A DNA stretch of 37,268 nucleotides from Cytophagaceae bacterium. GTDB taxonomy: Bacteria; Bacteroidota; Bacteroidia; Cytophagales; Flexibacteraceae. Numbering within the stretch: the first letter of the stretch is position 1; each line of letters opens with the position of its first letter. The DNA lies in the NCBI GenBank assembly GCA_027487695.1, contig JAIYDB010000078.1, positions 1-37,268 on the forward strand, written 5' to 3'. Made by a program: the position numbers and the translations under genes. Under the pieces are notes generated by a model. That model had not been told where the DNA came from and searched no databases. It saw only the letters and a program-made list of their open reading frames with translations. Positions 5,381 to 36,638 of the stretch are shown here, piece after piece.

Positions 5381-5382
5381 AT

Positions 5383-11918: not shown

Positions 11919-11988
11919 GGGCGTAACACAGCCAATTTAAGTTCTAATACACTATTAACTAAACCAATAAACCCCACTTCTAAATAGG

Positions 11989-12822: not shown

Positions 12823-13173
12823 CAAATGCCCCAACCTAAATAACTCAAAGCACCGCCCATAGCGGTGCTTTTCCTTTTCTTGAAATAGTTAAACCCTATA
12901 ACAAGTCAGTAAGCTGGTTTACGCGGTTTTAGAGGTCCCTCATTTTGCTATAAAATTTTTATCCATATGCATATAAATCCTTTATTATTGATTATCAATT
13001 ATTTAGTATTATCTTTACTTATTAACTCACTAAAATTTTAAGGAATTTTTATTGTCTTAAGCAACCTTCACTGGCATTGTAGCATTTACTAACCTGAAGA
13101 CACTTGCCGGCGTCCTTCAAAAAGTACAAGTTCAAAACTCGAATTTCATTACCACAAAATCTTTCTAATAACA
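12823..13173. other. Intergenic region between lipoproteins 2 and 3
   Basis: It holds the terminator at 12847-12880; the rest, very AT-rich between 12950 and 13060, is the probable promoter region of lipoprotein 3. A TATCTTTA at about 13009-13016 is one base from the -7 consensus, but no clear -33 is seen. No gene or RNA is recognised. Confidence 0.4.
12847..12880 (+). terminator. Rho-independent terminator after lipoprotein 2
   Basis: AAAGCACCGC (12847-12856) pairs with GCGGTGCTTT (12862-12871) around a 5-base loop CCATA, followed by a T-rich run (TTCCTTTTCT). It lies 25 bp after the stop codon. Confidence 0.8.
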
Positions 13174-14019: not shown

Positions 14020-14042
14020 GGTTTTTAGTAAATAAAACACCC

Positions 14043-14080
14043 AAAACCTAGCTATCAGTTAACTGATGGCTAGGTTTTTT
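14043..14080 (+). terminator. Rho-independent terminator after lipoprotein 3
   Basis: AAAACCTAGC (14043-14052) pairs with GCTAGGTTTT (14069-14078); the stem continues inward through TATCAGT / ACTGATG with one G-T pair. A run of six T follows. Confidence 0.8.
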
Positions 14081-14169
14081 ATTGGCGGCTATGGTAAAAA
14101 CCAAAGAAAATTAGTTGTATTTTGTTAAAATATTCATTTAATTTCGGTTCACTAATTAAAACTCCTTTC

Positions 14170-18646: not shown

Positions 18647-19666
18647 TTAAAATGTAGGCCAAGGTGTATAACGCTTGCTCTTCATTTTCCTATACACATT
18701 GTTCTTATCGGCTTTAAAAGGAACAAGGTATGCAATGGCTATTTCGTGGCTATTGCCAAGTCTTGGGAACCTATTTGGATTGTTAAATGCAAAATCATAG
18801 CTATAGGATAAAGTAATACCTTTTAGCTTGTAGCCTGCCATTACACTAAAGGCATCGCCTCGTTCTTTGCTGGTGCCTGAATTAGAGCCTTGATAAAACA
18901 CCCCACTTAGCCAACGGTTAAAGAAAACATAGGTTCCAAACTCAAACCGCCTGAAAGTGAATTGGGTATTATAATTAGCTAGAATACCTATGGCGTTACT
19001 CTCATCGTCAAAGCAGTTATCTTGGAGGAAAATCTTATAACCTGCGTGCACTGTTGTTCTAATTGGCAGCCTATCTGTTCCATCCTGTAATAGACTTTGG
19101 TCTGGTTGGTTCAAGTGACGAGCAGAAACCCCTATCCAAAAATTGCGTTCGTAATACATACCGCCCAATCCAAGGTCAAAAAAACCTGTTTGTAAGTTAG
19201 GCAATACTTCATTAGATGGTCTGCCGCTATTGATTTCATCGTTAAACAGCAGGTTACTATAATTCAAATCTCTGCGGAAGTAGTTACCATATATACCCAT
19301 ACGGAAAAACTTATTCTTTTTAATTTGTAATTGGTAAGCATAAGTAAGTCCGGCATCGGTACTGCGGTAACCTCCAACACCCTGCTTATCGGTTTGCAAA
19401 GTGATGCCTACTCCACTATTGAAGTTTTCAATAAAGTAATCGGCAGTCAAACTGTAAGTAATAAACCTTCCTTGGGAATTAGTAAACTGATTACGGAAGT
19501 TATTGACTACCCTTGGCACATTGGTAGTACCAGCAAAAGCTGGATTCAACGATAGAGGTGATGCATAAAACTGACTAAATAGAGGGTCTTGTGCTTGTAC
19601 TGTAAGTGTGGCTAACAGGTTAACCACAAACAATAAAACTGAAAATTGAAGTATCTTTTTCATCAT
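18647..19666 (-). CDS. PorP/SprF family outer-membrane protein, T9SS partner
   Basis: An outer-membrane protein of 339 residues with a signal peptide (LLATLTVQAQ) and the family's hallmark N-terminus DPLFSQFYASPLSLNPAFAG; the rest is a beta-barrel (FRMGIYGNYFRRDLNY, FRRFEFGTYVFFN, GDAFSVMAGYKLKGITLSYSYDF). In Flavobacterium johnsoniae the relative SprF is needed for surface display of the giant adhesin SprB, and such genes often sit next to a gene for a type B sorting-domain protein, as here. It starts 19 bp after the stop of the giant gene and is the second gene of that operon. The start could be either of two adjacent Met codons. I infer that it is the dedicated secretion or anchoring partner of the giant protein. 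Confidence 0.93.
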   Translation of the reverse strand: MMKKILQFSVLLFVVNLLATLTVQAQDPLFSQFYASPLSLNPAFAGTTNVPRVVNNFRNQFTNSQGRFITYSLTADYFIENFNSGVGITLQTDKQGVGGYRSTDAGLTYAYQLQIKKNKFFRMGIYGNYFRRDLNYSNLLFNDEINSGRPSNEVLPNLQTGFFDLGLGGMYYERNFWIGVSARHLNQPDQSLLQDGTDRLPIRTTVHAGYKIFLQDNCFDDESNAIGILANYNTQFTFRRFEFGTYVFFNRWLSGVFYQGSNSGTSKERGDAFSVMAGYKLKGITLSYSYDFAFNNPNRFPRLGNSHEIAIAYLVPFKADKNNVYRKMKSKRYTPWPTF

Positions 19667-19685: not shown

Positions 19686-22600
19686 TTAACGGATTAAAGT
19701 AACATCGCCGAATTTTACTTCGGTTTGGCCATCTGCAAATTGAACGTCTAAGCGATAGGTATAAGAACCTCCTGGGCAAAGTTTGCCTTGGTGGTAACCA
19801 TTCCAGCCCTTTTCTTTATCCTTGCTTTCAAACATAAGCTGTCCCCATCTATTGTAAATTTCCAATCGGAAGCTTACGGCCCCTCGGGTTACAGGATAGA
19901 ACACATCGTTCAATTCAGTATTGAAAATACTACCGTCGTTTTCGAAGTCAGGATTTGGCGTAAATGCATTAGGAATTAGAATACGCGCTGTTTTCTCTAC
20001 CTCAATTACATCTCTAATAGCAAATGTATCGGCACATCCATTGGCATTGTAGGCAATGAGTGTAACTGTATAGCGACCACTTTGCAAATACTTATGTTCA
20101 GGGGTTTCTAAGCTACTGGTATCACCATCGCCAAATTGCCATAAGTAACGGATAGCGCCTCTTGAGTTATTATTAAATACAACTCGCTCATCGGGCACTA
20201 CAAAGTTGTTCAATACATCAAAATTAGCTTCTGGTTTAGTTGAAATGGTGATAATGCCATTCTTAACTACATTGGTACTGCCACCTAAACCAACTACAGT
20301 TAGTCTTACAGTGAATGTACCAGGACGTAAATAAACGTGGGTAGGGTTCGGATCAAAGCTAGAACCACCATCGCCAAATTCCCATTGGTAAAACCTTGCA
20401 CTTACAGCTGTACTAGTAAAAGTAACTGGTAACCCAGGACAACCCCTGCCATTCGTAAAGGTAAAATCGGCTGCAGGTACTCCTTGGATTATCCTAACCA
20501 CTTGGCTGAATTCGCTACTACAACCGAGGTTATTAAACACCCTTTGGGTAATAGTGAATGATGTGTCTAGCGTACTTGTAATATTATAAGTATGCGTTAC
20601 TTGACTACCGTTATTAGTATCTAATCGGCTGCCATCGCCATAGTTCCAAACGCTTATATAGCCTTGCGGATTGATAGCCCGGTTCAGAATAGTTACTGTG
20701 GTTACAGGCTGGGTAAGCACAGGCTGCTGCAATTGGAATAGTGCCACTGGATTAGGCGTAACTCTTATGTTTCTGAATGAAGTATCGGCACAACCGAAAC
20801 CATTTCTCACAATCAATCGCACTCGATATACCTCATCTGAATTATTTCTATTGATGAATGTATGCACTGGGTTGGCTTGCAAACGCTCATCAGGACTGCC
20901 ATCGTCCCACGACCATTGTACTGAGGCAAATCTTGTACTTTGGTTAAAGAAGGAAATGGTTGTTCCACTACAAACCGCAGTATCCGAAGGTACGAAAGCC
21001 GCATTTGGCACACCAAAAATAGTGATGATACGAATTAGTGTATCAGTACAAACTATTTGACCGCCTTTACGAACGTTGGCGATGTAACGCAAGGTAAAGG
21101 TGGTATCGTCCGAACCAGTATAAGTATAAACCTTATTAGGCTGTGCCGTAGTTTGGTCTGGGCTACCATCGCCGAAAATCCAGCGTTGTTCGGTTGCACC
21201 AGTTGTTGCATTTGCCAAGTTTAAACGGAATGGACTACAACCAGTAATATTCAGATCGAAACCAATGTTAGTGCGCAAGGCAGGGTAAAGAGGTATTGTT
21301 TGTTCGGCAGTATCTGTACAACCAGAAGGAGAAGTAACAATAAGTCTGATGGTTCTACTTAAGGTATCTACACCATTGTTTCGGTACTGATAAATGAGGT
21401 TAGGACCACTAAATGTGCGCGTTCCTTCACCTACAAACCAAGTATAGCGGGCATTGGCAGGAGCTTCTACAGCATTGGCTTCTATGCCTACCACACCACA
21501 TTCATTGCCACCAATAAGGTTAAACTGAGCAATAGGTTTTGCCCTTACCCTAATGGTGCGTTCAGTAAATGAACTACAACCCGTAAATCGATTCCTTACA
21601 GAAAGACGAACGATATAAGTAGTATCTACAAAAACAGGAGAAGGGAAAATTACAACTGGGTTTCTGTTCACACTATCTATACGACCTGTGCCGAAATCCC
21701 AACGCCAATTGGTAACAGAGTTAGAGATAATACCCTGGAATTGAACAGGGTATGGCGCACAGCTTACGCTATCGGCAAGTAAAATTCTACTTACCAATTG
21801 TGGATTTACTACTACTGGTAAGGCAGCAGTATCTGAACAACCACTTATGCGGTTTACTGCAATTAACTTCACAATGAAGTTTTCTGGTCGGTCACTTAAA
21901 TGGCTGTAGGTATAGTTAAACCCAGCGGTATCTAATCTTGGACCTATTACATTGCCATCGCCCATATCGAAGAAGAACTCTTGGGCACCAAGAGTACCTA
22001 AGGCATTTACTCGCACTTGGTTACCAGAACATATAGGTGAACCAAAAATATTGAGCTGTGCCACAGGACGGGCAAAAATGCGGATAGTACGAGCAATAGT
22101 ATCGCCAGAACAAATGATGCTGTCTCCTTCTTGATACCAGCCTACATACTTTAAATTATAAGTAGTATCTCTTACTCCTGAATAGGTATAAGTTTTTGTT
22201 GGTTGACGTAGATTGCTCGTTGTACCATCACCAAAAATCCAAAGGTGTTGGTTGGCTCCAATAGTATTGTTAGTAAAGTTCAACGGAAGGTTAGCGCAAC
22301 CTGTTACAATGTTGGTTCCTGATAAGCGGGTTTGCAAGGCTGGATAAACTATTACCGATTGGCTGTATTCAGCAAAGCAACCGCTTATGCCTGTTACGCG
22401 CATTCTTACCAAATAAGTAATTGGCACATTAGTACCATTAAAGTAAGTATGGCTAAAGGTTGCGCTGTTTGTAGTAACCACAGTGCCATCGCCCATATCG
22501 TAACGGTAAATACGGTTGGCAGGAATGGCAGTAGCCAATAAGTTCACTTCCACATTGCCACAGAAACCACGAGAAGCAAGGGTAAAGAAAGCAATTGGGG

Positions 22601-25600
22601 CAGCCTTAACTCTAACTGATACACTGCTTTCAGAACGGCAGCCCGTAATTGTATTTTCAGCACGGAGACGAACTTGATAAACCGTATCGGCAGAGCGACC
22701 TGCATATTGGTAAGTTAAAGTGCGGTTGGTACTATCTTTAGTGCCATCACCAAAATCCCAAACAAACTTATCGGCACTGGCTGAAATTAAAGAATTGAAT
22801 ACCACTTGGTAAGGGGCACAGCCTGAAGTATCGCTGGTTTCTATCACTGCACTTACTTGAGGGGCCACAGTTACTAATACCGAACTAGTATCGGAACAGT
22901 TTGCCGCAGTATTGGTGGCAGTTAAAGTGACCCTAAAGGTGCGAACTACCGCAAGGTTATTTCTAAAATTAAAGTTTACAGCAGTATCTGAAGTAGTAAG
23001 GGTTTGTCCATCGCCGAAATTCCAAGTAAACTGATTGGCATTCCTACTTAATGAAGCACCCAAACGAACCACCGTACCATCACAAACATTATTGTTTGAG
23101 GCGGTTGCATTAGCGAAAACTTGCTTACCAACTCTAATTACTTGGGTAATGGAATCGCCTTCACAAACTACAGTACCTGCTGTTTCGGTCCACGCTACAA
23201 ACTTTAAGATATAAGTAGTGTCGGTACGGCTACCCGTGTAAGTATAAACCTTATTCGGGAATTGAGCTGCGCTAGTTGTACCATCGCCAAAGTTCCATAG
23301 GTAGCGGTTGGCACCTACTGTTCTATTAGTAATAGGCAAGGTAAATGGTGAACAACCATTGATATTCACGTTCGGACCTAAATCTGATTGCAGGCGAGGG
23401 TAAATGATAAAGGTTTGTTCGGTGGTATCTAAACAACCACTACCTGAGCGTACAATTAAACGGATAGTCCTGGTTAAAGTATCTGTACCAGAATTGATAT
23501 AGGTATAAACTGTTCCTGGTGAAGTGTTGCTCAGGGTGTTACCATCGCCAAAGTTCCAATCGTAGAACAAGTTGGCGGGACGCACTTCTGAATTTAATGC
23601 GACTCTTAAGCTACCACAGCCACCTGTTTCAGAAGCAGTAAATTGTGCCAATGGTTTCGCCCTAACTCTTATTAATTGTGTAACCGTATCGGTACATCCT
23701 GATGGTGTATTGATAGCAATCAATTGAACCAAATAGGTAGTATCTAAAGCACGACCTACATAGGTGTGGTCAGGTGCAAGATTGGTTGAATCAATAGTGC
23801 CATCGCCAAAGTTCCAATAGAACTTATTAGCAGCCGAGGAAATAATACCGCTAAATGTAGCCTTAAATGGTGCACAACCATCGGTAGTAGCAATGCCCAT
23901 TCTTGCTCTAATGGTTGGGAATACCGTAACTACCAATTGTGCAGTATCAAAACATCCTTCGGCAGTGTTTTCTGCTTTCAGAATTACACGGTATTGGCGA
24001 GGGGCTTCTTCTAAATTATCGTAAGCGATAGTTACCACACTATCGACAGTAACTTGCTTTACACCATTGCCAAAATCCCACTCAAAGCGGTTGGCACGTA
24101 AGCTGTTTTTAGCCGAGAAGCGATACACTGCTCCTGTACATTGAACGGTATCGTTTACAGTGAATCTGGCAACTGGTCCACGTACTAAACGAACTGTTTT
24201 AACTACGGTATCGGCATAAATGGTTACTGGCGAGTATATCTTATACGCTACCATGGTGAAGGTATAAGTAGTATCGTTCAAACCTTCATAACGGAAAAGC
24301 TGCCCTGGTCTGCGTTCGGTACTAAATGTGCCTGGCGCATTGCTAAAGGTCCAGTTAAGGGCATCGGCACTATCAGAAATAGAGGTTACCTGAGAAAAAA
24401 GTGCGTTACAGTCTGTAGTATCGCTTAGGGTAAAGTCAAATTCTATACGAGGGAAAACCGTAATATTTTGGATTGCAGTATCTAAACAACCATTCACATT
24501 ACGCGTTATCAACGAAACTGGGAATACCTGAGTTTGTCTGGTATTGTTAACTAAAGTATAGGTAAGGTTGCCACTGGTACGGTCAATCGTTCTGCCGTCA
24601 ATCAGGTAACGCCAAGCAATAATGCCTGCTTCACCACCTCTAAAGTTTACAGTGAGTGGAGTTATGCCTTCGCTTAAGTCAGTAATTAAGGTAGCGTTAG
24701 GTTTAGCACGAACTCTTATTGCCACAACTTGGGTATTTGAACAACCTAAAGCAGCATTAGCACCTGTAACTCTTACTTGGTAAATGGTATCTCTAGTTGT
24801 ATTATTTACGAAAGTATGGCTTGCATTGTTAGTAAATTCTTCAGCACTGCCATCTGCAAACTGGTAGGTAAATTGAGTTACTCCCGTACTTAAGCTAGAA
24901 TTAAAGTTCACTAAGAGTGGACTACAACCATCTGTTGTATTGGTAGAAATAATAGGTGCAACCACTGGTGCAACACGGATATTTAAGGTAGCAGTATCAA
25001 TACATCCGAAGCGACTTGTAGCGAATAGACGTACTGAGTAAATACGCTCATTTGGTGAATTATTGAAGAATACAGGATTCACACTGCTATCTGAGCGAGT
25101 AGTAAAGCTACTTCCTGAACCATAATCCCAACGGTATTCTACTGCTCCCCTACTGTTATTAAACAACCTATAAGGAACATTGGCACAAGCCCCCACCGTA
25201 AGTTCTGGTTCAAAGGCCGCCAATGGTTGCGGATATACTGTAATGGTTTGGAAAGTAGTATCTGTACAACCGCCAGCACTTGCCAAACTGCGAGCAATTA
25301 ACCGAACGCGATATTGAACGGTATCAGTTCCTTGGTTAGGGAAGGTAAATACTGGGTTACGTTGTGTACTTGTGCCTAAGCCAGCAAAATTCCATTGGAA
25401 GTTATCGGCTAAGAATGTGCTTTGGTTGGCGAATACTACGCGTAATGGTCCGCAGCCTTCGGTTACACTGGAATTAAACTCAGCCTCCAGACGAGGGTAA
25501 GCTGTTATACCTTGACGTAATGTATCGGTACAGCCATTAGGTAACCTAATTAAAACCTGTGCAGGATATACGATTTGCGTACTGTTTGCTGTAGCCTGAT

Positions 25601-28600
25601 AAGTATAACTACGTTGATTAGTGGAAACGAAACCACTTTGGTTACCATCGCCATAAATGAAGTTATAGGTGGCACCTGCTACCACATTAGCAGTAAACTG
25701 AACTGAGAATACCCCACATCCTGTTGTACGATTTACAGTTAAGGTATTATTACCCTTCGGCAACACAACTATGTTCTTTTGGAAGGTACTATTACAACCA
25801 CCTAAACCTGTTGCAGTTAGGCGAACTGTGAATACTCTTGGGGTAGTGAAGTTATTAGCAAATAACCTATTAGGTCTTTCTAATGTGCTAGTTTGTCCAA
25901 AGCCGAAGTCCCATAGGAACGATGTTGCTCCTGTTGTAGTGTTTGGAATGGCTAAACGAGTTCCACTGCAAAGCGTATCTGGTAAGTTGAAGCCTGCAGT
26001 TACTTCAGGATTTACTCTTATTCGTTTGGTAAGGGTAATTTCACAACCTTCGGCAGTAGTTGCTCTTACTTGTACATTATATACCTGCGATAAACTTCCT
26101 GTATTACGGAAGGTATGTCTTGCATTACCTACCGTAGTTGTTTCAGTAGTACCATCTGCATAGTTCCAAGCAAACGAAGTGAAGTTGCCTGTTGGCGCAC
26201 TAAAGTTTACATTGAATGGACCACAACCTACACTATCAGATGCTACCAAATCGGCTGCCGTGGCACCTAATGGGAATACCCTGATAGTTTGAGAAGTGGT
26301 ATTGAAACAGCCATTATCGCCAAAGGCAGTTAAACTAACGGTATAGGTAATTGGACTGCTGGTATTGTTTACCAAGCTAAAGGTTGGGTTGGTAGCTGTG
26401 CTTGTCGCCCCACCACCGAAGTTCCATAAATAGCTGCGGGCATTACTACTTGTATTATTGAACTGCACTTGTAATGGTGCACATCCAATAGCAGGGGCTG
26501 TAAAGTTTGCTAACACCCCAGGGTTAACAGTAATGCTTCTAAAAGCGGTATCGGTACAACCGTTTGCAGAAACTGCTATAACCTGAACATTATATGTTTG
26601 TGGTGCGCCGGTAGTATTACCAAATACCTTTTCTATAGAGGCAGTATTGGTTACTTGAGGGGCTGTGCCATCGTTAAAGTTCCAACGGTATTCTGAAATG
26701 TTAACTCCAGATGCGGTAAAGCGTACATTTAAAGGTGCGCAACCATTGCTAGCACTACTTACTAAACCAATATTAGGTTTGGCAAAAACCGTGTAGGTTT
26801 TACGGAATACTTTTGTGCAATAGGCAGCCGTAGCACGTAGCGTAACGGTGTATTGTTGTTGTAAACTAGTGCTACCATTGGTAAAAGTAGCAATAGGTTC
26901 AAAATCGGTACTAGTTTGTCCGTTGCCAAAGTCCCACGCTAATGTAGGCGCCGCAAAAAACGGATTGGTACTTGTTGTATTTCTAAATGCAACGACGAGC
27001 GGACTACATCCTGCAGAATTTAAGGTATCAAAACCTAAATCAATATTTGGGAAAACAGTGAGTGATATACTTGCAGTATCAGGACATCCATTTGGCGAGA
27101 AGGCTATTACCCTTGCGGTACGAACTAAGTTTTGTACTGAAGTAAGGTTGCTATAAGTATGTTGAACTGTGTTGGCTGTTGTTTCCAAACTATCGCCATC
27201 ACCAAAAATGAAACGATATCTAGTTGGTTGAATATTAGAAACATTAGCACGTAGTGTAATTAATTCTGGACCACAGAAGGCAGTTTGCGAGGCAGTAAAT
27301 GCAATGGCTGGCTGCTTTACCACCACTATTTGCTTGCTGATAGTTTGGCTGCACTGGCTATTACTTGCGGTAACACTTACAGTAAGGGTTCTGTCATTTG
27401 CTGTATTGTTGAAATACAGGGCTTGAACATCCCTAGTGGTTAAAGTTCTACCATCGCCTAGGTTCCAAGTAAAGTTAGTAGCTGAGGCATTGGTAGTATT
27501 AGTAAAACTGAAACGTGCAGGAGAACAAAGGGTATCGGCATTTACATCAAAGCCAACTTGAAGACTTGGTAAAACAGTAATTGGCGTTTCTGAAACCGAC
27601 TTACAACCGTTAGGACTAGTTACACTTACTCTTGGCCTTACCACAAATGAACCGTTGAAAGCGATTGCTACATTCTCAACCGACCAGTTATCAAAGCCTA
27701 CTCCTTCATTCACTAACTGAACCAAGCGAATACGGGTAGCTATAGTTCTTGCAGCTATTGGTAAAGCTTGACTAACCGTAGTCCAATTGGTAAACAATTC
27801 TAAATTTATGGTTGAAATGGTGTTCCAAGTTGTTCCCCCATTAGTACTGAACTGAATAAGTACTGGCTTGTTAGGTTCTGCAAAATCGCAGCCTGAACCA
27901 CCGCTACCATTTTTAAGAGCAAAACTAAGGGTTGCTCCATTCGTAAATTCAAAATCTTGGGAAACCAATTGTCTAGGTCCTGCCCCGTTAAAGTAAAGCG
28001 CATTACCATTTAAGGCACCGCAAGCTTGGGAGATAGTACCGTTATGGCTAGCCCAAACACGAGGGTTAACAGCCACATCAAAACTATCTGAAATTATGCC
28101 TGAAAAGGTATAATTAACGGTTGAACCTGTATTTGAACGAGTTTGTCCGTTGCCAAAGTCCCAATCAAAACGACTGCCAGCAATGGCATTGGTTGCGGTT
28201 AGGGTAGTAGCAAAAGGAGCGCAAGCAATTGTAGTAGTACTTGAAACTGCAACTATAGGACTAGGCAATACTGAGATTGTTCTAGTGATTACATTCGTAC
28301 AAGTGCCTGTTCCAGTATTGGTTGCTCTTAAGCTTACCTGTACATTTTGAGGTGCATTGGTATTATTGATAAAAGTGAAACTTGGATTAGCATCTGTGCT
28401 AGTGCCTTGACCACCAAAATTCCACAAATAGCTTTCTGCACTTGTTGAGGATGTATTAGTAAATGATAATGGTTCACCACTACAAACTGAAGCTAGAGAT
28501 GTAAAACCAGCTGTTACTCCAGGACGTACTGTGATTGTTTGCTTAATAGTATCGGCACAACCATAGGTATTGATTATAACTAAACTTACTGGAACAAGAC

Positions 28601-31600
28601 GATCGGCAGTATCGGTGTTGAGATAGGTACGACGTAATGTTTGGTCTGATAAGCTATTTAATTGATTTGCCTGTAAACGGAGGGTATCGGCGGCACCATC
28701 AAAGTTCCAGAAGTAGACTTCGTTGGTCCATGGTCTTGGCTCATAAGTAAATGAGATTGCCGCAGGTGAACAAGCCGAATTGGTATTTACTGTAAATGTA
28801 GCAGTACGTTGTGGCAATACCTTGAAAGTATGGCGTTGGATATCAGTACAGCCAGTTATGGTATTGGTAGCTTCAAGAGCGATATAATGCCAAACGGTAT
28901 CGTTCGGTAAACCTGAGAAATTGTAGTTAACCAAGTTTTGTGTGGTTGCCCTCAAAACACCGTTCACATACCAACGATATTGATTGGCATTCTTACTAAA
29001 GTTGAAGATGGTGGCCACACCACTATCACATAAAACAGTAGGTAAGTAGTAATTGGTATCAGCACCTACAATACTGCGAGAAAGCGCCATTTGAGGAATT
29101 ACCTTCGGCTGTAAGGTAAAGGTGGTTGGGTTACCTGCAACATTACAACCACCGGCATTTACTCTTATTGCTTGAATACTTGCCGTTTGAGCATTGTTTC
29201 CATTATTGGAAAGCACAACTTTTAAGGTTGGTTCTGTTGTACTAAATATTTGAGATACTGATCCATTCCTTGTAATCCATTTGTAGGTAGCACCTGCAAA
29301 AGCTTGGGTGGTGGCAACAATGGTATCTTCTGAACAATAAATGGTATTGTTAACCGATACAACTGGCTCAGCCGTTGGCTCTATGATAAATTGCTTATAG
29401 ATGGTATCTGAAACGCAACCATAAAAATTAGTGAGCAATAGCTTAGCTACAAGAGTCTGGGTAGTATTACTATTGTTTACATAGTTCTTTTGAATAGCCA
29501 AACGGTAAGCAGCATCCAATACATTTGGAGTTCCTACAGAGAATGGCGAATTAGCAACAGTAGTAGTACCATCGTGGAAGAATGCTTGCACCCTTGCAGT
29601 AGTTAATGGCACATAGAAATTAACGAAGGTATTTCCGCAGAAAGTGGAGTCGTTATTATCGTTTGAAAGTGGGCCTGTGCCAAGGTTTGTACCTGAAATA
29701 GTGGTATTAAAAGTCCAACTATCAATTTGAACATCAGCATTTACTGCAGGATAAAGCAATAAACTATCGGTCTTTGAGAAGCTGCAACCGTTAGGACTGG
29801 TAGCCGTTAAAGTGTATCTAATAGTTTGAGGAATGCCAGTGGTATTGTTAAGGATTACTGAATCTGATACTGCATTTGAGGTATACCCATTGCTCCAAAC
29901 CCAGTTATAGGTAGCTGCACCAATACTGGTATCGGCCCTAAAGTTTACCTTAGTAGTTCCGCAATTATTGAAAGAACCAACCGATAATATAGGTACCGCT
30001 CTGGTCGCAGGACGCACACGAATTACTCGGGTTAACCTACTTGCTTGGTTGGCGCAGTTAGTTGCCTTTAATTCTAAAGTGTAAAGTATTTCCCTTGATC
30101 TGTTAAGGCTGGCGGTATTGGAAACTTCATTTCTGTTTTCAAACAGGTAGGTGAAGTTTTGCATACGTCCCTGTACTAGGGAATCAATAATTACACCGCT
30201 TTGGTTTCGGATATACCAAGTATAGCCTGTGGCATTTAAGGTAGTATTTGTAATGGCAACATTAAATGCATTACAACCTTCTAAGGTATCAGTAACCGCA
30301 GTATTACCATTGATTGCGAAACTTGCAGATGGCAGTATAGTGGTGTTGTTTCTATTTACTGCAATCAATTTCACTACAGTATCAGAATAGCAACCAAAGG
30401 CAGATTGCACCACTAAACGGGCTTGTACCACTTGGTTATTGGTGCCGTTGTTTACATACACTTTGCTAAAGCTATTTGCCGAAGAGGTACTAGTGGTACC
30501 ATCGCCAAAGTCCCAAGCATAATTGACTGCATTGCTGCTTAGGTTGGTAAAGTTTACTGTTAATGGAGAACAACCACCATCTGCATCAATGTTAAAGTTG
30601 GCTCTTGGCGCAGGACGCACAATGATTTGCTTCCTCACTGTATCAGTCTCACAACCATTATTGCTAAAGGCAATGTATTCTATATTATAAATAGAATCGC
30701 TTCCAGCAACTGCGGTATTGGTAAAGGTTCTGGTGAAGGCATTTCTATTATTACTTGAAAGAATAGTAGCGCCATTTACTTTCCAAACGTGTCGGCTAGC
30801 GTTACGTGTATCGTTCAAGAATGTGGCATTTACCCTGCCGCAACCTGAAACTTGCGCTTGTAAAGATAACTGTGCAATCAAGGCGGGATTTCCTGCTCTC
30901 AATTGTACTTGTTGGGCAGGAGTTAGTGCATTGGTATCAATTACTGCAACCACAGCTTCTGGCAATTCATCAATTTGAATGATAGCTACATCTGTATTGC
31001 TGCAACTGAAGGCACTACCGCAAGTATCGGTACTAGTAGTTAATGCAACTGTATAAGTTCCACTTTGAGCAAAGTTCCAAGCAAAGTTTCTAGTACAGGT
31101 ATCTCTTAATAAAGTGCCGTTTCTACTTAATTGCCAGCGGTAGCCATCTGCCTTTCTAAAGGTTCTGCGATTAGTATTCCTAACTGTATCAGCGGCAAAG
31201 GGAACGTTATTTCCAGCACAAAGTCGTAGAGTATCATTAACGATATTTGATCTATAATCCAGACTATCAATTACAATGCTTGAAAATGGTCGGGGCTGAA
31301 CAGTTACTAATACCGCCTTCGTTTGCTGACAGCCATTAGCATCAGTACTGGTTAGGAAGTATTGCGTTGTTCCAAGTGGAGTTGCTATTACACTGGCTGT
31401 ATTAGCTGATGATAAACCAGCAGTAGGTCGCCAAGAATAGTTAACGCCACCCGTGGCAACCAGACTTGTATTGCCACCTTCGCAAATGGCAACATTAGGA
31501 CTTACAGCTAAAGTAGGCGAAGCTTCATTAAATCCATTCCAAATGCTAAATGAACGCCAAGAGTTAATTGAGGCATCAAATACCCATAATAAATAATTAG

Positions 31601-34600
31601 CATAACTAACATTAAATTCATTCGGAATTGATAGATTAGTAGGCAGGTTTGCGCTATCAGCAACCAAACCAGTTGCCTTATTAAAGAAGTAAATGCGGTT
31701 ATAACTGGTGTTGATTACTGCAATTTCTTTGTCTTTAATTCCTGAGTAAAGAACAGTTCTATTCCAATTTTGAGTACTTGAATTAGTTAATCCTGAAAGG
31801 TTAACGGTACCTACTAAAAGACCATCGGCTCTACTATATCTGGCAACCTGCAAACCATTCAAATAAAGCACTTCATTACTTGCAAAATCGTAAGCTCCAA
31901 CAGATTGAGCGCCAGGTTGCAACTGTCCTTCAAAAAGGGTAGTTCCACCACCTATTGCTACTTGGGCTGGATTTAATCTGGCAGCAAACCAGCCATTATC
32001 AAAGAAGCCATTTCCTTCTAATTGGTTGGTAGCAGGGTTCCACCACAAACCTCGGTAATCAAAACCTGCTTCAACATTATTAATTCTGCTGCCTGTGGCA
32101 TCGTAGGTGTTTAAGTCTAAAGTATCGTTACCAGCAACGGGTGAATAATATAATTGGGAAGTTGGGTTGTAGGCTACAGCAGTAACACCTGCACTTGCAT
32201 CCATTTGCAAACGTATAGGAGTTTCCACTGCGGTTAACCGCACATTACCTTCTGCACAATTGGTTGGTATACAACCTTGGGCAATATTATTTCTGGAATA
32301 AATAGTAAAAGTTCTGGTAGTAGTATCGGTACAACCGAGGGCACTGAATGCAATTTGCCTTATTGTTAGGAGGCTATCTCTTGTAGTAGTATTGATAAGT
32401 GTTCGGTTCACATTGGCCCTATCAAAAACAAAAACAGTATCGGTATTGCCAATTAAGTATTTGAAATAGGTAGCAGCATCGTTACTGGTATTGATAATTG
32501 CAATATCAGCTGGTGAACAACCACTTGCTCTACTTGTAGTAAATCCTGCAATAGGGTTTCTGTATAATTGAATGCTACGAGCAAAAGTATCGGCACAACC
32601 TTGGGTGTTCCTGGCAATCAGGCGAATTTGAACAAAGGTATCGGTCCTGTTTGGGGTGCGGAAAGTATAGGCAATAGGCAGGTTGGTAAGTGCTTCTACA
32701 GTATCGGTTCCGAAAATCCAAGTGTAGTTATTAGCACCAAAACTATTGTTGCGGAAAGTATTGGTAAGTGGACTACATCCTCTTAAACTATCAATAGTAA
32801 ACGAAGAAATAGGTCGTGGGAAAACAGGAACACTGAAAAACTGTGTATCGGTACAGTTTAGGCTATTTCTAGCGATTAAGCGAACCGTATAAATACTATC
32901 TCTACTTCTGAAAGGATTGGTAAATGTGAAACTAACTGGGCTAGTGGTATTTCTGTTTATGGTCTGGCCGTTACTAGCAGTCCATATATAGTTGCTGGCA
33001 TTCAGACTATTATTGGTAAAAGTAACGGTGGCACTGCCGCAATTCTGAGTGATAGCAGGAGTGGCAATGGCTTGAATTATCCCACGTACTCTTACACTAT
33101 CTAAAAATTCGCTTACGCAGCCAATATTGTTCGTAATCCTAAGTTTTATATATACTGTACTATCGGTTGTTGCTGCTCCTGTAAATGTGCGGATAAGATT
33201 AGCAGAGGCTGCTGTTGTAGTGCTATCAGTAAATCCATTACTTCCACCAAAGAACCAACGGGCAACAGTACCACCGCTACTTCTGTTGGCAAATGCAATA
33301 CGCAAAGGTGAACAACCCGAAGCCCCATTCTTTTGGAACCCTGCAATTGGTTGTGGTTTTACAATGATAGTACGCTCTAATGAGTCAATACATATATCAC
33401 TAGTCAATGAAATCAAACGGATAGTGTAAAGACTATCGGCTGTTGTACTAGTGTTTACCAATGGAAGGTTAAATGTGGCAGCGCTATTAGTGCCAAAGAA
33501 CTGAACACCATTTACTTTCCATAGATAAGTATTGGCATTGGTACTATTATTTGAAAGCGCTACCGAAGTTCCAGCACAAAATTCTTGGTTAGGAACAATG
33601 CTACCGTTTATAGCAAAATCGGCTCTTACCCTTCTGGAAATAGTGAGGGTAGTGAATGAGGTATCAAAACAACCACCAATATTCCTAGCAATTAAAGTAA
33701 CTGGAACTAGGCTATCATTTGCACCTATCAGGTCAAAATCTAGATTGAATGGTGCAGTTGATGATGTACTTACAACCCTTGAACCAATGAACCAAGTATA
33801 GCCATTGGCGGCATTACTTAAATTGGTAAACGTAATGGTTATTGGAGAACAACCACTTAAAACCGACGTTGCGAATGCTGCTGCTGGTTGCGGATCAACA
33901 ATGATGTTTTTTACAATGGTATCGGCACAGCCTTGGGCATTTATGCCAATTAAACGAACTGGGTAAGTAACAGCTTCCGTACCTCTGTTTACAAAGCGGT
34001 AGCTAAAATCTGAATTATTGAATCGGGCAGAATTAACGCCTTCTATTTGCCATTGGTATTGGAAAAGACCTCCCGTAATATCAGTGAAGTTTACCGTTAG
34101 AGGTGAACAACCATTAATTGAACCTAAGGCAGAATTACCATTGATATTAAAGTTTACAGTAGGTTCAGGATATACCAATAAATCAACTATTGTGCTATCT
34201 ATACAACCATTTGCAGACTGTGCAATAAGGGTAACAGGCACCGTAATGTTGGCATTAGAAGTGTTGATTAGGGTGTAATTCAACGACCCCAAATCGTTCC
34301 TCACGAAAGTGGCTAAAGTGCCTACTTTCCAAGTGTAGCGCACGCCACCTGTACTTAGGTTAGCTAATTGGATATTGAAAGGAGAACAACCACCTAATTG
34401 TGCTGCTTGAATAGATGCTCTTGGTTTACCAAAAATGGTGATGGTTTGTCCTACCGAATCTGAGCAACCGTTAGCCGTTACCGCCCTTAAAGTTACTCTA
34501 GTAGTTCTATCCGTTAAACTAGAAGGGAAAGTTCTGCTAACAGGACTTGCTGAAGTAGTTACTACAGAATCGGTTTCACTAAACTTCCAAACGTAACGTA

Positions 34601-36638
34601 TGGCAGGACCTGTTGTGTTGTTTTGAAAGTTAACTGTTAGTGGTCCGCATCCATCTAAAGGACTAGCAGCAAATGCCACATTTGCTCTTTCAGTAACCGT
34701 AATGGCTTGCTGTGCCTGGGTACTACAATTCAGAGAATTAAAAGCAGTTAAACGAACAGTATAAATCCCCGCTGTAGGGAAGAAATATGTGATTGAACTA
34801 TCACTTGTAGTTTCTAATGAATCGCCTGTACCAAAATTCCAGCGATAACGGATAGCCCCTGTGCTAAAGTTTTGTAATACAACAGCATTTCCATTACATA
34901 CATTCGCGGTTAAGGTTCTAATACCTGCAACTGCTTGGTTTATTACCTGAACTGTAACAAAATCTGTATCGGTACAAGAAGCTGTTCTGGCAATAAGTCG
35001 GACCGTATAAGTACCTGCTAATGGATAATTGAACACCACAGAATCGCCTATTGCTGTTGCACCATTTCCGAAGTTCCAATTATAAGTAACACCCGTAACG
35101 CCATTGGCAATATTGCTAGTTCTATTTGCTTTGAATGTAAATGCTGTACCCAAACAAACACTAGTTGGAACAGGCAAAATTGCTGCCGTTGGTTGTGCAC
35201 TAATGGCTACTGGGAAGTTTACTGTACTATCAACACAGTTTTCACCTGTGCTTACAATCACTTTATAGTTGCCTGGACCTGTAACAGTTAGCAAGGAATC
35301 GGCACCTTGTTGAACTATATTACCATCACGCTTCCAGATATAATTGTAACCTGCACGCCAAGCTGCTTTCAACAAAAGACTTTGTCCGTTACAGATATTA
35401 GTATTGCCTAATGCGGTAATTCTAGCCACTGGAGGCTGTAAAACCCTAATGGTAAGCGGAAACGATACCATATTGTAACCACCCGTATCAGTTACAGTTA
35501 CTTGATAAACTCCACCTTGGTTAATGTTGAGCAAACTATCAGTTGCTGAAAGGAATAAGTTATCACGCTTCCAGCTATAGAAAACAGTGCTTGCCGAAGT
35601 ATAAGCCTGCAAAGTGGTATTACCAGACGGACAAAATTCTGTTGCCCCAAAACTTCTTAATCGCACTACTGAACGCAAGAAATGCACCAACCCACCTGGT
35701 GAGGTAATCCATTTGTTTCCTCTGCTATCTACCTGAACAGAAAGTAATTGGTTGGTAGGAATAGAAGAATTACTGGTATTAAATCGGTGGTAATCTTTGC
35801 CATCGAAAGCTAGAAGTCCTGCCGTGTTGGTAGCTAGCCAGATTATACCAGCCCTATCTACGGCAATACCATTGATAAAGTTATCTGGCAATCCACTATT
35901 TAAAGCGGTATAAGGTTGCCAAAATCCAAAATTAAAAACGGCAAAACCACCTCCTGCAGTGGCTGCAAATACTACTCCGCCGCTATTACTAGTGATGGCT
36001 CTTATATCGTTACTCTGTAAACCACTATTAGAAATATTATAGGTTTGGAAGCTATTGGTTCCGACCTGAACTGCTATACCACCACCCACAGTACCTACCC
36101 AAACACGATTTAGGGCATCAATATGTACGGTACTAATGTTGCTAGAAGGCAAGGTGCTATTACCCGCATTTAAGGTGTTCCATCCAGTAGCATCTGAATA
36201 AAAGCTAAGTCCGAATTGGGTGGCAACTAATAAATTGTTCCCTTGGGTAGCTATGGAACGTACGTTATTACTAGGTAAACCGCTATTGAAAATGGTAAAG
36301 GTGCTCCACACACCACCGGAGAAACGTGAAAGTCCTCCACCATTGGTACCTACCCAAATATCGCCATTAGCAGTTTGCGCCAACGATGCAATGAAGTTAC
36401 TTCCTATTCCACTGTTACTTGTATTAAAAACTGTAGTAACACCACTAGAACTTACACGAACCAATCCTGCTCCTTGGGTACCAATAATTCTGCTTCCATC
36501 AGCCGACTGGAGGAAGGCAGTGGTAAAATCGGCAGGTAAGTTCCCATTTCTTGTATTATAAACATCTGCAAGTCGCTGAGCTTTCACAAAGCCACCAATA
36601 AAGACCAGCAAAATAAGAGAGAGTAATAGTTGCTTCAT
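19686..36638 (-). CDS. Giant multi-PKD T9SS-secreted surface protein (5650 residues)
   Basis: An uninterrupted coding frame of 5650 residues (about 600 kDa), probably a cell-surface adhesin. Order: signal peptide 1-20 (FIGGFVKA before Q); a seven-blade propeller at about 22-322; two Ig-like units; then about 50 PKD-type units with the core Y-x-W-x-F-G-D-G and usually two cysteines each (GCSPL before the Trp strand, GC-x-DT after it); and a T9SS type B sorting domain at 5551-5650. A beta-propeller-like segment (about 1456-1706) and a reelin-like jelly roll (about 2850-2990) are inserted. I counted 54 Trp-strand units in all. In the C-terminal third a four-unit superrepeat occurs four times. 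The porP/sprF gene follows after 19 bp, the arrangement of sprB-sprF in gliding flavobacteria; it is not a SprB homologue by domain. Ligand unknown. It is the first gene of its operon. Confidence 0.93.
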   Translation of the reverse strand: MKQLLLSLILLVFIGGFVKAQRLADVYNTRNGNLPADFTTAFLQSADGSRIIGTQGAGLVRVSSSGVTTVFNTSNSGIGSNFIASLAQTANGDIWVGTNGGGLSRFSGGVWSTFTIFNSGLPSNNVRSIATQGNNLLVATQFGLSFYSDATGWNTLNAGNSTLPSSNISTVHIDALNRVWVGTVGGGIAVQVGTNSFQTYNISNSGLQSNDIRAITSNSGGVVFAATAGGGFAVFNFGFWQPYTALNSGLPDNFINGIAVDRAGIIWLATNTAGLLAFDGKDYHRFNTSNSSIPTNQLLSVQVDSRGNKWITSPGGLVHFLRSVVRLRSFGATEFCPSGNTTLQAYTSASTVFYSWKRDNLFLSATDSLLNINQGGVYQVTVTDTGGYNMVSFPLTIRVLQPPVARITALGNTNICNGQSLLLKAAWRAGYNYIWKRDGNIVQQGADSLLTVTGPGNYKVIVSTGENCVDSTVNFPVAISAQPTAAILPVPTSVCLGTAFTFKANRTSNIANGVTGVTYNWNFGNGATAIGDSVVFNYPLAGTYTVRLIARTASCTDTDFVTVQVINQAVAGIRTLTANVCNGNAVVLQNFSTGAIRYRWNFGTGDSLETTSDSSITYFFPTAGIYTVRLTAFNSLNCSTQAQQAITVTERANVAFAASPLDGCGPLTVNFQNNTTGPAIRYVWKFSETDSVVTTSASPVSRTFPSSLTDRTTRVTLRAVTANGCSDSVGQTITIFGKPRASIQAAQLGGCSPFNIQLANLSTGGVRYTWKVGTLATFVRNDLGSLNYTLINTSNANITVPVTLIAQSANGCIDSTIVDLLVYPEPTVNFNINGNSALGSINGCSPLTVNFTDITGGLFQYQWQIEGVNSARFNNSDFSYRFVNRGTEAVTYPVRLIGINAQGCADTIVKNIIVDPQPAAAFATSVLSGCSPITITFTNLSNAANGYTWFIGSRVVSTSSTAPFNLDFDLIGANDSLVPVTLIARNIGGCFDTSFTTLTISRRVRADFAINGSIVPNQEFCAGTSVALSNNSTNANTYLWKVNGVQFFGTNSAATFNLPLVNTSTTADSLYTIRLISLTSDICIDSLERTIIVKPQPIAGFQKNGASGCSPLRIAFANRSSGGTVARWFFGGSNGFTDSTTTAASANLIRTFTGAATTDSTVYIKLRITNNIGCVSEFLDSVRVRGIIQAIATPAITQNCGSATVTFTNNSLNASNYIWTASNGQTINRNTTSPVSFTFTNPFRSRDSIYTVRLIARNSLNCTDTQFFSVPVFPRPISSFTIDSLRGCSPLTNTFRNNSFGANNYTWIFGTDTVEALTNLPIAYTFRTPNRTDTFVQIRLIARNTQGCADTFARSIQLYRNPIAGFTTSRASGCSPADIAIINTSNDAATYFKYLIGNTDTVFVFDRANVNRTLINTTTRDSLLTIRQIAFSALGCTDTTTRTFTIYSRNNIAQGCIPTNCAEGNVRLTAVETPIRLQMDASAGVTAVAYNPTSQLYYSPVAGNDTLDLNTYDATGSRINNVEAGFDYRGLWWNPATNQLEGNGFFDNGWFAARLNPAQVAIGGGTTLFEGQLQPGAQSVGAYDFASNEVLYLNGLQVARYSRADGLLVGTVNLSGLTNSSTQNWNRTVLYSGIKDKEIAVINTSYNRIYFFNKATGLVADSANLPTNLSIPNEFNVSYANYLLWVFDASINSWRSFSIWNGFNEASPTLAVSPNVAICEGGNTSLVATGGVNYSWRPTAGLSSANTASVIATPLGTTQYFLTSTDANGCQQTKAVLVTVQPRPFSSIVIDSLDYRSNIVNDTLRLCAGNNVPFAADTVRNTNRRTFRKADGYRWQLSRNGTLLRDTCTRNFAWNFAQSGTYTVALTTSTDTCGSAFSCSNTDVAIIQIDELPEAVVAVIDTNALTPAQQVQLRAGNPALIAQLSLQAQVSGCGRVNATFLNDTRNASRHVWKVNGATILSSNNRNAFTRTFTNTAVAGSDSIYNIEYIAFSNNGCETDTVRKQIIVRPAPRANFNIDADGGCSPLTVNFTNLSSNAVNYAWDFGDGTTSTSSANSFSKVYVNNGTNNQVVQARLVVQSAFGCYSDTVVKLIAVNRNNTTILPSASFAINGNTAVTDTLEGCNAFNVAITNTTLNATGYTWYIRNQSGVIIDSLVQGRMQNFTYLFENRNEVSNTASLNRSREILYTLELKATNCANQASRLTRVIRVRPATRAVPILSVGSFNNCGTTKVNFRADTSIGAATYNWVWSNGYTSNAVSDSVILNNTTGIPQTIRYTLTATSPNGCSFSKTDSLLLYPAVNADVQIDSWTFNTTISGTNLGTGPLSNDNNDSTFCGNTFVNFYVPLTTARVQAFFHDGTTTVANSPFSVGTPNVLDAAYRLAIQKNYVNNSNTTQTLVAKLLLTNFYGCVSDTIYKQFIIEPTAEPVVSVNNTIYCSEDTIVATTQAFAGATYKWITRNGSVSQIFSTTEPTLKVVLSNNGNNAQTASIQAIRVNAGGCNVAGNPTTFTLQPKVIPQMALSRSIVGADTNYYLPTVLCDSGVATIFNFSKNANQYRWYVNGVLRATTQNLVNYNFSGLPNDTVWHYIALEATNTITGCTDIQRHTFKVLPQRTATFTVNTNSACSPAAISFTYEPRPWTNEVYFWNFDGAADTLRLQANQLNSLSDQTLRRTYLNTDTADRLVPVSLVIINTYGCADTIKQTITVRPGVTAGFTSLASVCSGEPLSFTNTSSTSAESYLWNFGGQGTSTDANPSFTFINNTNAPQNVQVSLRATNTGTGTCTNVITRTISVLPSPIVAVSSTTTIACAPFATTLTATNAIAGSRFDWDFGNGQTRSNTGSTVNYTFSGIISDSFDVAVNPRVWASHNGTISQACGALNGNALYFNGAGPRQLVSQDFEFTNGATLSFALKNGSGGSGCDFAEPNKPVLIQFSTNGGTTWNTISTINLELFTNWTTVSQALPIAARTIATRIRLVQLVNEGVGFDNWSVENVAIAFNGSFVVRPRVSVTSPNGCKSVSETPITVLPSLQVGFDVNADTLCSPARFSFTNTTNASATNFTWNLGDGRTLTTRDVQALYFNNTANDRTLTVSVTASNSQCSQTISKQIVVVKQPAIAFTASQTAFCGPELITLRANVSNIQPTRYRFIFGDGDSLETTANTVQHTYSNLTSVQNLVRTARVIAFSPNGCPDTASISLTVFPNIDLGFDTLNSAGCSPLVVAFRNTTSTNPFFAAPTLAWDFGNGQTSTDFEPIATFTNGSTSLQQQYTVTLRATAAYCTKVFRKTYTVFAKPNIGLVSSASNGCAPLNVRFTASGVNISEYRWNFNDGTAPQVTNTASIEKVFGNTTGAPQTYNVQVIAVSANGCTDTAFRSITVNPGVLANFTAPAIGCAPLQVQFNNTSSNARSYLWNFGGGATSTATNPTFSLVNNTSSPITYTVSLTAFGDNGCFNTTSQTIRVFPLGATAADLVASDSVGCGPFNVNFSAPTGNFTSFAWNYADGTTETTTVGNARHTFRNTGSLSQVYNVQVRATTAEGCEITLTKRIRVNPEVTAGFNLPDTLCSGTRLAIPNTTTGATSFLWDFGFGQTSTLERPNRLFANNFTTPRVFTVRLTATGLGGCNSTFQKNIVVLPKGNNTLTVNRTTGCGVFSVQFTANVVAGATYNFIYGDGNQSGFVSTNQRSYTYQATANSTQIVYPAQVLIRLPNGCTDTLRQGITAYPRLEAEFNSSVTEGCGPLRVVFANQSTFLADNFQWNFAGLGTSTQRNPVFTFPNQGTDTVQYRVRLIARSLASAGGCTDTTFQTITVYPQPLAAFEPELTVGACANVPYRLFNNSRGAVEYRWDYGSGSSFTTRSDSSVNPVFFNNSPNERIYSVRLFATSRFGCIDTATLNIRVAPVVAPIISTNTTDGCSPLLVNFNSSLSTGVTQFTYQFADGSAEEFTNNASHTFVNNTTRDTIYQVRVTGANAALGCSNTQVVAIRVRAKPNATLITDLSEGITPLTVNFRGGEAGIIAWRYLIDGRTIDRTSGNLTYTLVNNTRQTQVFPVSLITRNVNGCLDTAIQNITVFPRIEFDFTLSDTTDCNALFSQVTSISDSADALNWTFSNAPGTFSTERRPGQLFRYEGLNDTTYTFTMVAYKIYSPVTIYADTVVKTVRLVRGPVARFTVNDTVQCTGAVYRFSAKNSLRANRFEWDFGNGVKQVTVDSVVTIAYDNLEEAPRQYRVILKAENTAEGCFDTAQLVVTVFPTIRARMGIATTDGCAPFKATFSGIISSAANKFYWNFGDGTIDSTNLAPDHTYVGRALDTTYLVQLIAINTPSGCTDTVTQLIRVRAKPLAQFTASETGGCGSLRVALNSEVRPANLFYDWNFGDGNTLSNTSPGTVYTYINSGTDTLTRTIRLIVRSGSGCLDTTEQTFIIYPRLQSDLGPNVNINGCSPFTLPITNRTVGANRYLWNFGDGTTSAAQFPNKVYTYTGSRTDTTYILKFVAWTETAGTVVCEGDSITQVIRVGKQVFANATASNNNVCDGTVVRLGASLSRNANQFTWNFGDGQTLTTSDTAVNFNFRNNLAVVRTFRVTLTATNTAANCSDTSSVLVTVAPQVSAVIETSDTSGCAPYQVVFNSLISASADKFVWDFGDGTKDSTNRTLTYQYAGRSADTVYQVRLRAENTITGCRSESSVSVRVKAAPIAFFTLASRGFCGNVEVNLLATAIPANRIYRYDMGDGTVVTTNSATFSHTYFNGTNVPITYLVRMRVTGISGCFAEYSQSVIVYPALQTRLSGTNIVTGCANLPLNFTNNTIGANQHLWIFGDGTTSNLRQPTKTYTYSGVRDTTYNLKYVGWYQEGDSIICSGDTIARTIRIFARPVAQLNIFGSPICSGNQVRVNALGTLGAQEFFFDMGDGNVIGPRLDTAGFNYTYSHLSDRPENFIVKLIAVNRISGCSDTAALPVVVNPQLVSRILLADSVSCAPYPVQFQGIISNSVTNWRWDFGTGRIDSVNRNPVVIFPSPVFVDTTYIVRLSVRNRFTGCSSFTERTIRVRAKPIAQFNLIGGNECGVVGIEANAVEAPANARYTWFVGEGTRTFSGPNLIYQYRNNGVDTLSRTIRLIVTSPSGCTDTAEQTIPLYPALRTNIGFDLNITGCSPFRLNLANATTGATEQRWIFGDGSPDQTTAQPNKVYTYTGSDDTTFTLRYIANVRKGGQIVCTDTLIRIITIFGVPNAAFVPSDTAVCSGTTISFFNQSTRFASVQWSWDDGSPDERLQANPVHTFINRNNSDEVYRVRLIVRNGFGCADTSFRNIRVTPNPVALFQLQQPVLTQPVTTVTILNRAINPQGYISVWNYGDGSRLDTNNGSQVTHTYNITSTLDTSFTITQRVFNNLGCSSEFSQVVRIIQGVPAADFTFTNGRGCPGLPVTFTSTAVSARFYQWEFGDGGSSFDPNPTHVYLRPGTFTVRLTVVGLGGSTNVVKNGIITISTKPEANFDVLNNFVVPDERVVFNNNSRGAIRYLWQFGDGDTSSLETPEHKYLQSGRYTVTLIAYNANGCADTFAIRDVIEVEKTARILIPNAFTPNPDFENDGSIFNTELNDVFYPVTRGAVSFRLEIYNRWGQLMFESKDKEKGWNGYHQGKLCPGGSYTYRLDVQFADGQTEVKFGDVTLIR
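19689..19988 (-). other. T9SS type B sorting domain of the giant protein
   Basis: Residues 5551-5650 carry the gliding-motility-associated C-terminal (CHU_C) signature: IPNAFTPN, DVFYPV, FRLEIYNRWGQLMFES, WNGYHQGKLCPGGSYTYRL, and a last strand ending DVTLIR. In this family it directs export through T9SS and is linked to PorP/SprF partners. Confidence 0.92.
21003..25220 (-). repeat. Four-unit superrepeat, four tandem copies
   Basis: Four consecutive blocks of four PKD units (A-B-C-D), about 350 residues each, with approximate boundaries at 25220, 24171, 23118, 22062 and 21003; the spacing is 1049, 1053, 1056 and 1059 bp. A units have C(S/T/D)G (less clear in block 1, CAN); the B-to-C junction reads RVRAKP in three blocks and RVKAAP in one; C units share a PAN motif in three; D units have DTTY and a late Val-Cys segment before IR(V/I). 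Residues about 3807-5212. Confidence 0.8.
25240..28530 (-). repeat. Two-unit alternating pattern in the middle of the PKD array
   Basis: Residues about 2700-3800 alternate between two unit types. Type alpha has LWNFGG-x-x-TST with NP-x-F and NNT. Type beta has (Y/F)G-DG-like turns followed by ETT or similar and a late NGC. Alpha units lie around 28430, 27440, 26930, 26420, 25910 and 25390, with beta units between; one beta unit carries the reelin-like insertion. Confidence 0.55.
27666..28091 (-). other. Reelin-subrepeat-like jelly roll inserted in a PKD unit
   Basis: Residues about 2850-2990 do not fit a PKD unit. They carry a sequence order close to reelin repeats: SQACGALNGNALYFNGAG, GPRQLVSQDF, a Cys after a Gly/Ser-rich loop, IQFSTNGGTTWNTIS, and a last strand with FDNWSVENV. 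A PKD core (DWDFGNGQT) precedes it and the rest of a PKD unit (RPRVSVTSPNGC) follows, so the module splits that unit. Similar modules occur in other Bacteroidota secreted proteins from memory. Confidence 0.7.
31520..32273 (-). other. Beta-propeller-like module inside the PKD array
   Basis: Residues about 1456-1706 have no PKD core. I see about five blade-like repeats with YNPTSQLYY, WWNPATNQLEG, YDFASNEVLYLNG, NTSYNRIYFFNKATG and NYLLWVFDASINSW. It starts after CIPTNCAEG and is followed by an Ig-like unit beginning ICEGGNTS. Role unknown; it could be a glycan- or protein-binding platform. Confidence 0.55.
35673..36575 (-). other. N-terminal seven-blade propeller of the giant protein
   Basis: Residues about 22-322 hold seven repeats of about 43 residues, each with a strand such as DIWVGTNGGGLSRF, VWVGTVGGGIAV or IIWLATNTAGLLAF and a loop of the form NSGLPSN. 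This is the Reg_prop-type repeat best known from the sensor part of hybrid two-component systems. Seven repeats suggest one closed propeller. Confidence 0.8.

Follow-up and report, generated by a model that had tools for sequence, protein, structure and literature searches.

Why would a bacterial protein repeat its domains in fours? The question is raised by a 37,268-nt stretch of a Cytophagaceae bacterium genome (contig JAIYDB010000078.1; the whole stretch is hereafter called the window), which encodes a giant protein of 5650 aa on its minus strand (19686..36638). ORF calling and translation recover it as one uninterrupted open reading frame (ORF). Around 50 PKD domain units are arranged in arrays within it, as identified with Pfam and NCBIfam profiles and a hidden Markov model (HMM) trained on the protein's own units. 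An earlier reading made from the sequence alone (the sequence-only reading) proposed that one part of the protein is a higher-order repeat, ABCD × 4, amplified stepwise as a block and perhaps functioning as a unit of four. We find that the repeat is real. As its cause we favor, with good confidence, an ancient, in-frame, tandem duplication of a four-PKD block, itself derived from an alternating pair, with the array serving as a stalk segment of a type IX-secreted surface adhesin or fiber.

A Four-Unit Repeat at the Protein Level

We delimited contiguous PKD units using the HMM mentioned above, which was trained iteratively. The A-B-C-D series occurs four times across residues 3806–5211 (21006–25223), all on the minus strand. 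Block 0 (24174..25223; 1050 bp, 350 residues), the most diverged copy, consists of A0 (24960–25223), B0 (24699–24959), C0 (24444–24698), and D0 (24174–24443). Block 1 (23118..24173; 1056 bp, 352 residues) consists of A1 (23910–24173), B1 (23652–23909), C1 (23391–23651), and D1 (23118–23390), and Block 2 (22065..23117; 1053 bp, 351 residues) of A2 (22854–23117), B2 (22596–22853), C2 (22335–22595), and D2 (22065–22334). Block 3 (21006..22064; 1059 bp, 353 residues) consists of A3 (21795–22064), B3 (21534–21794), C3 (21276–21533), and D3 (21006–21275). The next PKD unit on the minus strand, A4 (20745..21005), occupies the A position but is not A-like in sequence, its best mates being u1189, u3718, and A0.

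These block lengths agree with the period of 1049–1059 bp given in the sequence-only reading, and its prediction that every B-to-C junction reads RVRAKP or a near variant also held (RVRAKP, RVRAKP, RVKAAP, and RVRAKP). A C-x-G motif that it assigned to the A units is present in A1–A4 (CTG, CDG, CSG, and CSG), but A0 has CAN instead. Its statement that successive D units end in the same context is true only loosely.

An ungapped self-comparison of residues 3700–5250 peaked at offsets of 352, 705, and 1405 aa. When the units A0 to D3 plus A4 were compared by global alignment, the mean score was 128.6 at offset 4 and 121.6 at offset 8, compared to 46.7–63.7 at offsets 1, 2, 3, 5, 6, and 7 (56, 64, and 47 at offsets 1–3). 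The period-4 statistic was reached by 0 of 20,000 permutations. Among some 50 similar domains, a degree of periodicity could arise by chance. Residues 484–1450 and 1709–2794 show no significant period in the same permutation test, so the giant protein is not periodic throughout. Chance as the source of the four-unit period is refuted by the permutation result and by the rejection of neighbor clades in approximately unbiased (AU) tests, described below.

Tandem Repeats Finder and a DNA-level repeat search returned short families only, as the blocks are too diverged. This divergence marks the repeat as a protein-level feature and led us to reject an assembly artifact. Directly upstream, adjoining the four-unit stretch, residues 3027–3805 (25224..27560, minus strand) form a PKD stretch with a two-unit period of ~171 aa (p 0.009; period 4, p 0.13).

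Phylogeny of the Repeat Units

We built trees from a 17-unit set (A0 to D3 plus A4; 88 columns) and from a separate 51-unit set, and compared constrained topologies by AU tests. On the 17-unit tree, the phase labels A–D require four changes, compared to a minimum of three and a mean of 9.8 for shuffled labels. Forcing the units of block 1, 2, or 3 into a clade was rejected (AU p 5e-63, 1e-5, and 7e-6, respectively), at a cost of 67–78 log units. Forcing a clade of A, B, or D units from blocks 0–3 was not (p 0.29–0.38; cost 0.7–2.5), and C0–C3 already lie on one side of a branch, with support of 31/0. In the 51-unit tree, the four B units group together (99/79), as do the four D units (86/67), while A and C are less clean. 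Sisters are thus units four apart, not neighbors: the sequence-only reading had named sisterhood of neighbors as the result that would overturn it, and clades of block 1, 2, or 3 are rejected at AU p ≤ 1e-5. Its expectation that each of the four phases would cluster stands for B and D and less clearly for A and C. The array is a multi-domain super-repeat, since its units are most similar at one set spacing of more than a single domain and the tree groups them by phase.

The sequence-only reading had singled out the copy nearest the middle of the protein as the most diverged, and this is Block 0: its same-phase mean scores to the other blocks are 81/136/66/73 for A/B/C/D, compared to 102–202 for blocks 1–3. 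Its membership in the series is nonetheless distinct, with A-B-C-D the best of the 24 possible orders and its location scoring highest among 132 window-rotation placements that avoid blocks 1–3. Block 0 may be the oldest copy or the one that has drifted most freely.

Nested Pairs and the Age of the Blocks

The four phases are not equidistant. Pairing A with C and B with D gives the closest phases (mean 71.5, compared to 58.4 and 47.2 for the other two pairings), and the tree splits A+C from B+D. The linkers alternate in the same manner. Those from odd to even units carry V-x-P (VFP, VYP, VNP, and VAP), those from even to odd units mostly carry V-x-x-x-P (VRAKP, VKAAP, and IFARP), and this proline register alternates almost unbroken from A0-B0 through D3-A4. 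The four is therefore a nested two, and the alternating pair is better supported as the building unit than the four. We hypothesize a nested history in which one unit became two, two became four, and four became four fours; the block would derive from an alternating pair, with A and C descending from the odd unit, B and D from the even unit, and the alternating linkers retained.

Same-phase copies in the window are ~31–48% identical. At 4-fold degenerate sites shared by same-phase units of blocks 1–3, identity is 39% (82/209), with 34% expected from codon usage at saturation. Judged by this divergence, the block duplications are ancient. Of the stepwise amplification suggested by the sequence-only reading, one part stands, namely that the block and not single domains was duplicated; the order of the steps is unreadable because synonymous sites are near saturation. 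An ancient in-frame tandem duplication of the four-PKD block would yield residues 3806–5211.

Several observations weigh against this account. No whole phase group is strongly supported in the 17-unit tree, where only D1–D3 reach 99/99, and an alignment of 88 columns is too short to support most forks strongly. A0 and C0 have matches elsewhere in the protein that equal or exceed those to A1–3 and C1–3, and the fifth A position is filled by the non-A-like A4. The split of A+C from B+D has support of only 79/83, and alternative splits are not rejected (AU p 0.12–0.13). PKD domains are found also in enzymes and S-layers, so the stalk role is supposed on general grounds.

PKD Arrays in Related Genomes

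To place the period of four in context, we surveyed 72 stretches around PKD-rich genes from the same genome, family, order, and class, yielding 63 contiguous arrays of at least 8 units. Each array was compared to 60 shuffles, in which windows were scanned alike, at p < 0.05. Most arrays from outside the genome entered the survey because they resemble the window's blocks, a choice that may favor similar arrays. Period 2 was significant in 21 arrays, period 5 in six, period 4 in four, and period 3 in two.

The four period-4 arrays are that of the window and those of L023, L024, and L026, which are mutually orthologous and so not independent. These three genes from the same family (frames of 3794, 3782, and 3775 aa, respectively) resemble the window gene in carrying four-unit-period PKD arrays of similar length and share its type IX secretion system (T9SS)-type C-terminus (L026, 45% identical over 99 aa). 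They form one orthologous group, with the window gene placed outside it by its N-terminus. Unlike the window, neither L024 nor L026 has a PorP/SprF gene among the neighbors checked. A further array, L025, showed a weaker period 4 in one analysis and was classed as period 2 in the 63-array survey.

The three orthologs (L023 346–11727, L024 2147–13492, and L026 3205–14529) are PKD giants from two genera in which the unit number is unchanged and the four-unit array is internal. They align unit by unit without internal gain or loss, and we rejected four-unit insertions as the feature distinguishing them. Their phases match each other but not the A–D of the window; homology with the window's phases was rejected, as no rotation was consistently preferred. 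Period 4 would thus have arisen twice or diverged past recognition.

These relatives bear on whether selection has kept a functional unit of four, that is, one binding or assembly unit, or one fiber turn, preserved through duplication. The near-constant block length (1050–1059 bp) fits such a unit, as do the period 4 of the three relatives (arrays of 15–19 units) and, weakly, of L025, and the 35-unit architecture that the L023/L024/L026 orthologs hold constant between two genera; the dissimilar phases could reflect more than one origin of fours. However, most periodic PKD arrays have period 2 and others 3 or 5, so four is no rule of the family. The four is itself nested in two, and the unit that closes the array, A4, departs from its phase. 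Simply duplicating a block of four domains produces this pattern too, without selection on four. We consider a selected unit of four unlikely. The functional role for four that the sequence-only reading had floated is not supported; duplication explains the pattern without it.

Another possibility is that blocks continue to undergo unequal exchange or gene conversion, and that this, not a few old duplications, maintains period 4. In its favor, the outer units of the L023/L024/L026 orthologs match by position, yet for 18 of 19 array units of L023 the same-phase units within L023 are nearer than the best L024 unit. Between L024 and L026, in contrast, each array unit has its nearest match in its positional ortholog, and in the window the low identity of same-phase copies and the near-saturated synonymous sites argue against recent homogenization. 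We regard ongoing exchange as improbable for the window.

A stronger competitor, to which we give somewhat less than even chances, is that the true unit is the alternating pair: an odd and an even PKD subtype, differing in their linkers, would make up a two-domain module conserved across giant surface proteins of Bacteroidota, and the four would be one amplification of two such modules. Over the 53 arrays with at least 12 units, mean similarity is highest at offset 2 (0.48 s.d.; top in 21 arrays), followed by offset 4 (0.36). Odd and even classes are coherent between species, with a leading eigenvalue of 299 compared to 52–159 in 15 shuffles, a margin that is approximate because up to six units per class entered the observed value but no more than three entered the shuffles. 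Linker classes agree at offset 2 in 72% of cases, compared to 65% when shuffled, and the window itself separates A+C from B+D. Against this, the classes of the window itself are matched only modestly (most contrasts lie at 0–18 score units, and 2/24 are negative), linker alternation is lacking in many arrays, and the selection of most arrays for resemblance to the window's blocks applies here as well. The idea also partly refines the block duplication that we favor rather than opposing it.

A bolder version strikes us as doubtful, namely that giant PKD surface fibers in Bacteroidota consist of two PKD subtypes in conserved alternation, with two linker geometries and with fours or larger even sets fixing the pitch or register of the fiber, and that the four of the window arose independently of that of its family.

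Other periods can be pronounced. A five-unit period is strong in L069 (7991, minus strand), L036 (5193, plus strand), and L061 (7420, minus strand), with in-phase scores of 269–318 compared to 75–145. L041 (2846, plus strand) has the strongest two-unit period that we found, and its linker classes alternate unbroken over ~19 junctions.

Predicted Fold and Comparison with Known Systems

An AlphaFold2 model of A1–D1, computed with 75 other four-unit rows, had a pLDDT of 95 and a pTM of 0.78. Among solved structures, it is matched best by four-PKD pieces of GhpA (PDB 9flp and others), the grappling hook protein A of Aureispira sp. CCB-QB1, with a Foldseek E of 1e-14. VIA-align gave Z ~14 over 309–319 residues, with an rmsd of 8.5–9.9 Å chain-wide; single PKD domains match the model at 1.2–1.4 Å. 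A profile of the four-unit rows finds GhpA at E 7e-147. The PKD assignment (PF18911/PF00801) comes from the PKD fold of this model and from profile PF18911, which scored 458 and 123 bits on the two halves of the protein (cut-off, 27).

Like the window protein, GhpA is a PKD-rich giant (5,898 aa); it is reported to be T9SS-secreted and to form heptameric hooks (review PMC11205867). The C-terminal half of the window protein matches GhpA in the PKD stretches, while phmmer found no GhpA match to the N-terminal half at E ≤ 0.01. We rejected orthology with GhpA, as the similarity is confined to PKD units and the propeller and more of the N-terminal half are unmatched. The window protein may have a fiber or hook role by analogy, though not as a member of the GhpA group. 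Should the geometry of odd and even units differ, domain order would encode the shape of a cell-surface fiber, which is now open to test given the solved pieces of PKD-rich giants such as GhpA.

SprB/SprF of Flavobacterium johnsoniae offers a second comparison, in which a giant surface protein with a type B C-terminal domain adjoins a PorP/SprF-like gene, as in the window. SprB filaments are ~200 nm long, and the Cys-x-Cys C-tail of SprF links it to GldK and is required for gliding (PMC12635249). Unlike this pair, the window protein has no SprB repeats among Pfam matches at E ≤ 0.001 in either half, and its PorP/SprF neighbor has no Cys-x-Cys in its C-tail, with no Cys in the last 60 residues. 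We therefore rejected an SprB-type gliding adhesin, and the lack of Cys-x-Cys in the partner makes an SprB-like gliding role unlikely. The best TIGR03524 (GldJ) matches in the genome come in pieces and fall below the 458-bit cut-off.

Multi-domain super-repeats are already known, and the window array adds a PKD example. In eukaryotes, tandem duplications of several domains include nebulin blocks of 7, zinc fingers (2–4), fibronectin III (4), and cadherin (5) (Bjorklund et al. 2006, PMC1553488). In that study as in the window protein, similarity peaks at a set spacing of more than one domain, several domains are copied at once, the unit size may differ along one protein, and two is the commonest unit overall. 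They differ in that the window array is bacterial, type IX-secreted, and made of PKD domains; the study covered seven bacteria, and its text does not mention PKD. A literature search, incomplete and including few subscription journals, returned no description of super-repeats in PKD arrays. Bacterial giant adhesins can thus grow by block copying of domains, as nebulin does, with the pair the commonest block in the PKD arrays surveyed.

Predicted Secretion and Anchoring, and Domain Architecture

The giant protein begins with a signal-peptide-like N-terminus and ends with a CHU_C/Bac_Flav_CTERM type B sorting domain for type IX secretion (19719..19979, minus strand; PF13585, E 1.2e-11, 45 bits against a cut-off of 27; TIGR04131, 38.0 bits against 35), so it has the C-terminal domain of a type B substrate. 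Directly downstream of the ORF lies a gene for a PorP/SprF-family outer-membrane protein (18647..19666, minus strand; PF11751, E 1.3e-50; TIGR03519, 211 bits). The genome (2.9 Mb, 129 contigs) also encodes the SprA translocon (2350 bits at G000:C99) and nine further proteins matching PorP/SprF. A cognate PorP/SprF-like partner, in most cases the product of the next gene downstream, is required by type B substrates, which it recognizes, binds, and retains at the surface (PMC12618676; PMC9143113); the gene pair in the window is laid out in this way. The neighbor is the probable dedicated carrier of the giant protein.

Exactly two cysteines are present in 45 of the 51 units, a pattern suggesting that the pair probably forms one disulfide per unit. 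We hypothesize that the giant protein is secreted by the type IX system and anchored at the cell surface by the PorP/SprF protein, where a chain of Ig-like domains, almost every one carrying two cysteines, would project the N-terminal propeller and other binding modules outward. Length, stiffness, and alternating inter-domain geometry would then matter, not a four-domain binding site, and the four-unit blocks would record block duplication of stalk segments.

Near the N-terminus, Pfam and NCBIfam profiles identify a Reg_prop β-propeller of the two-component-regulator type (35679–36551, minus strand). It matches a solved hybrid two-component sensor at E 1e-22 and lies at the end furthest from the secretion signal. 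In mid-protein, the PKD array is broken up by a Reelin-subrepeat-B-like module (27663–28001, minus strand; PF21471, E 8e-23; phmmer to solved Reelin, E 8e-20), possibly a ligand-binding module.

Other Features of the Window

Rfam gave no match anywhere in the window. A recent tandem duplication apparently gave rise to two adjacent small lipoprotein-like genes (4829–5934, minus strand), each of 183 aa and very similar to the other. Four further lipoprotein-like genes of ~277–298 aa stand in a row on the plus strand (11070–15018) and resemble a tandem family, of which 15182–16072 may be a fifth member.

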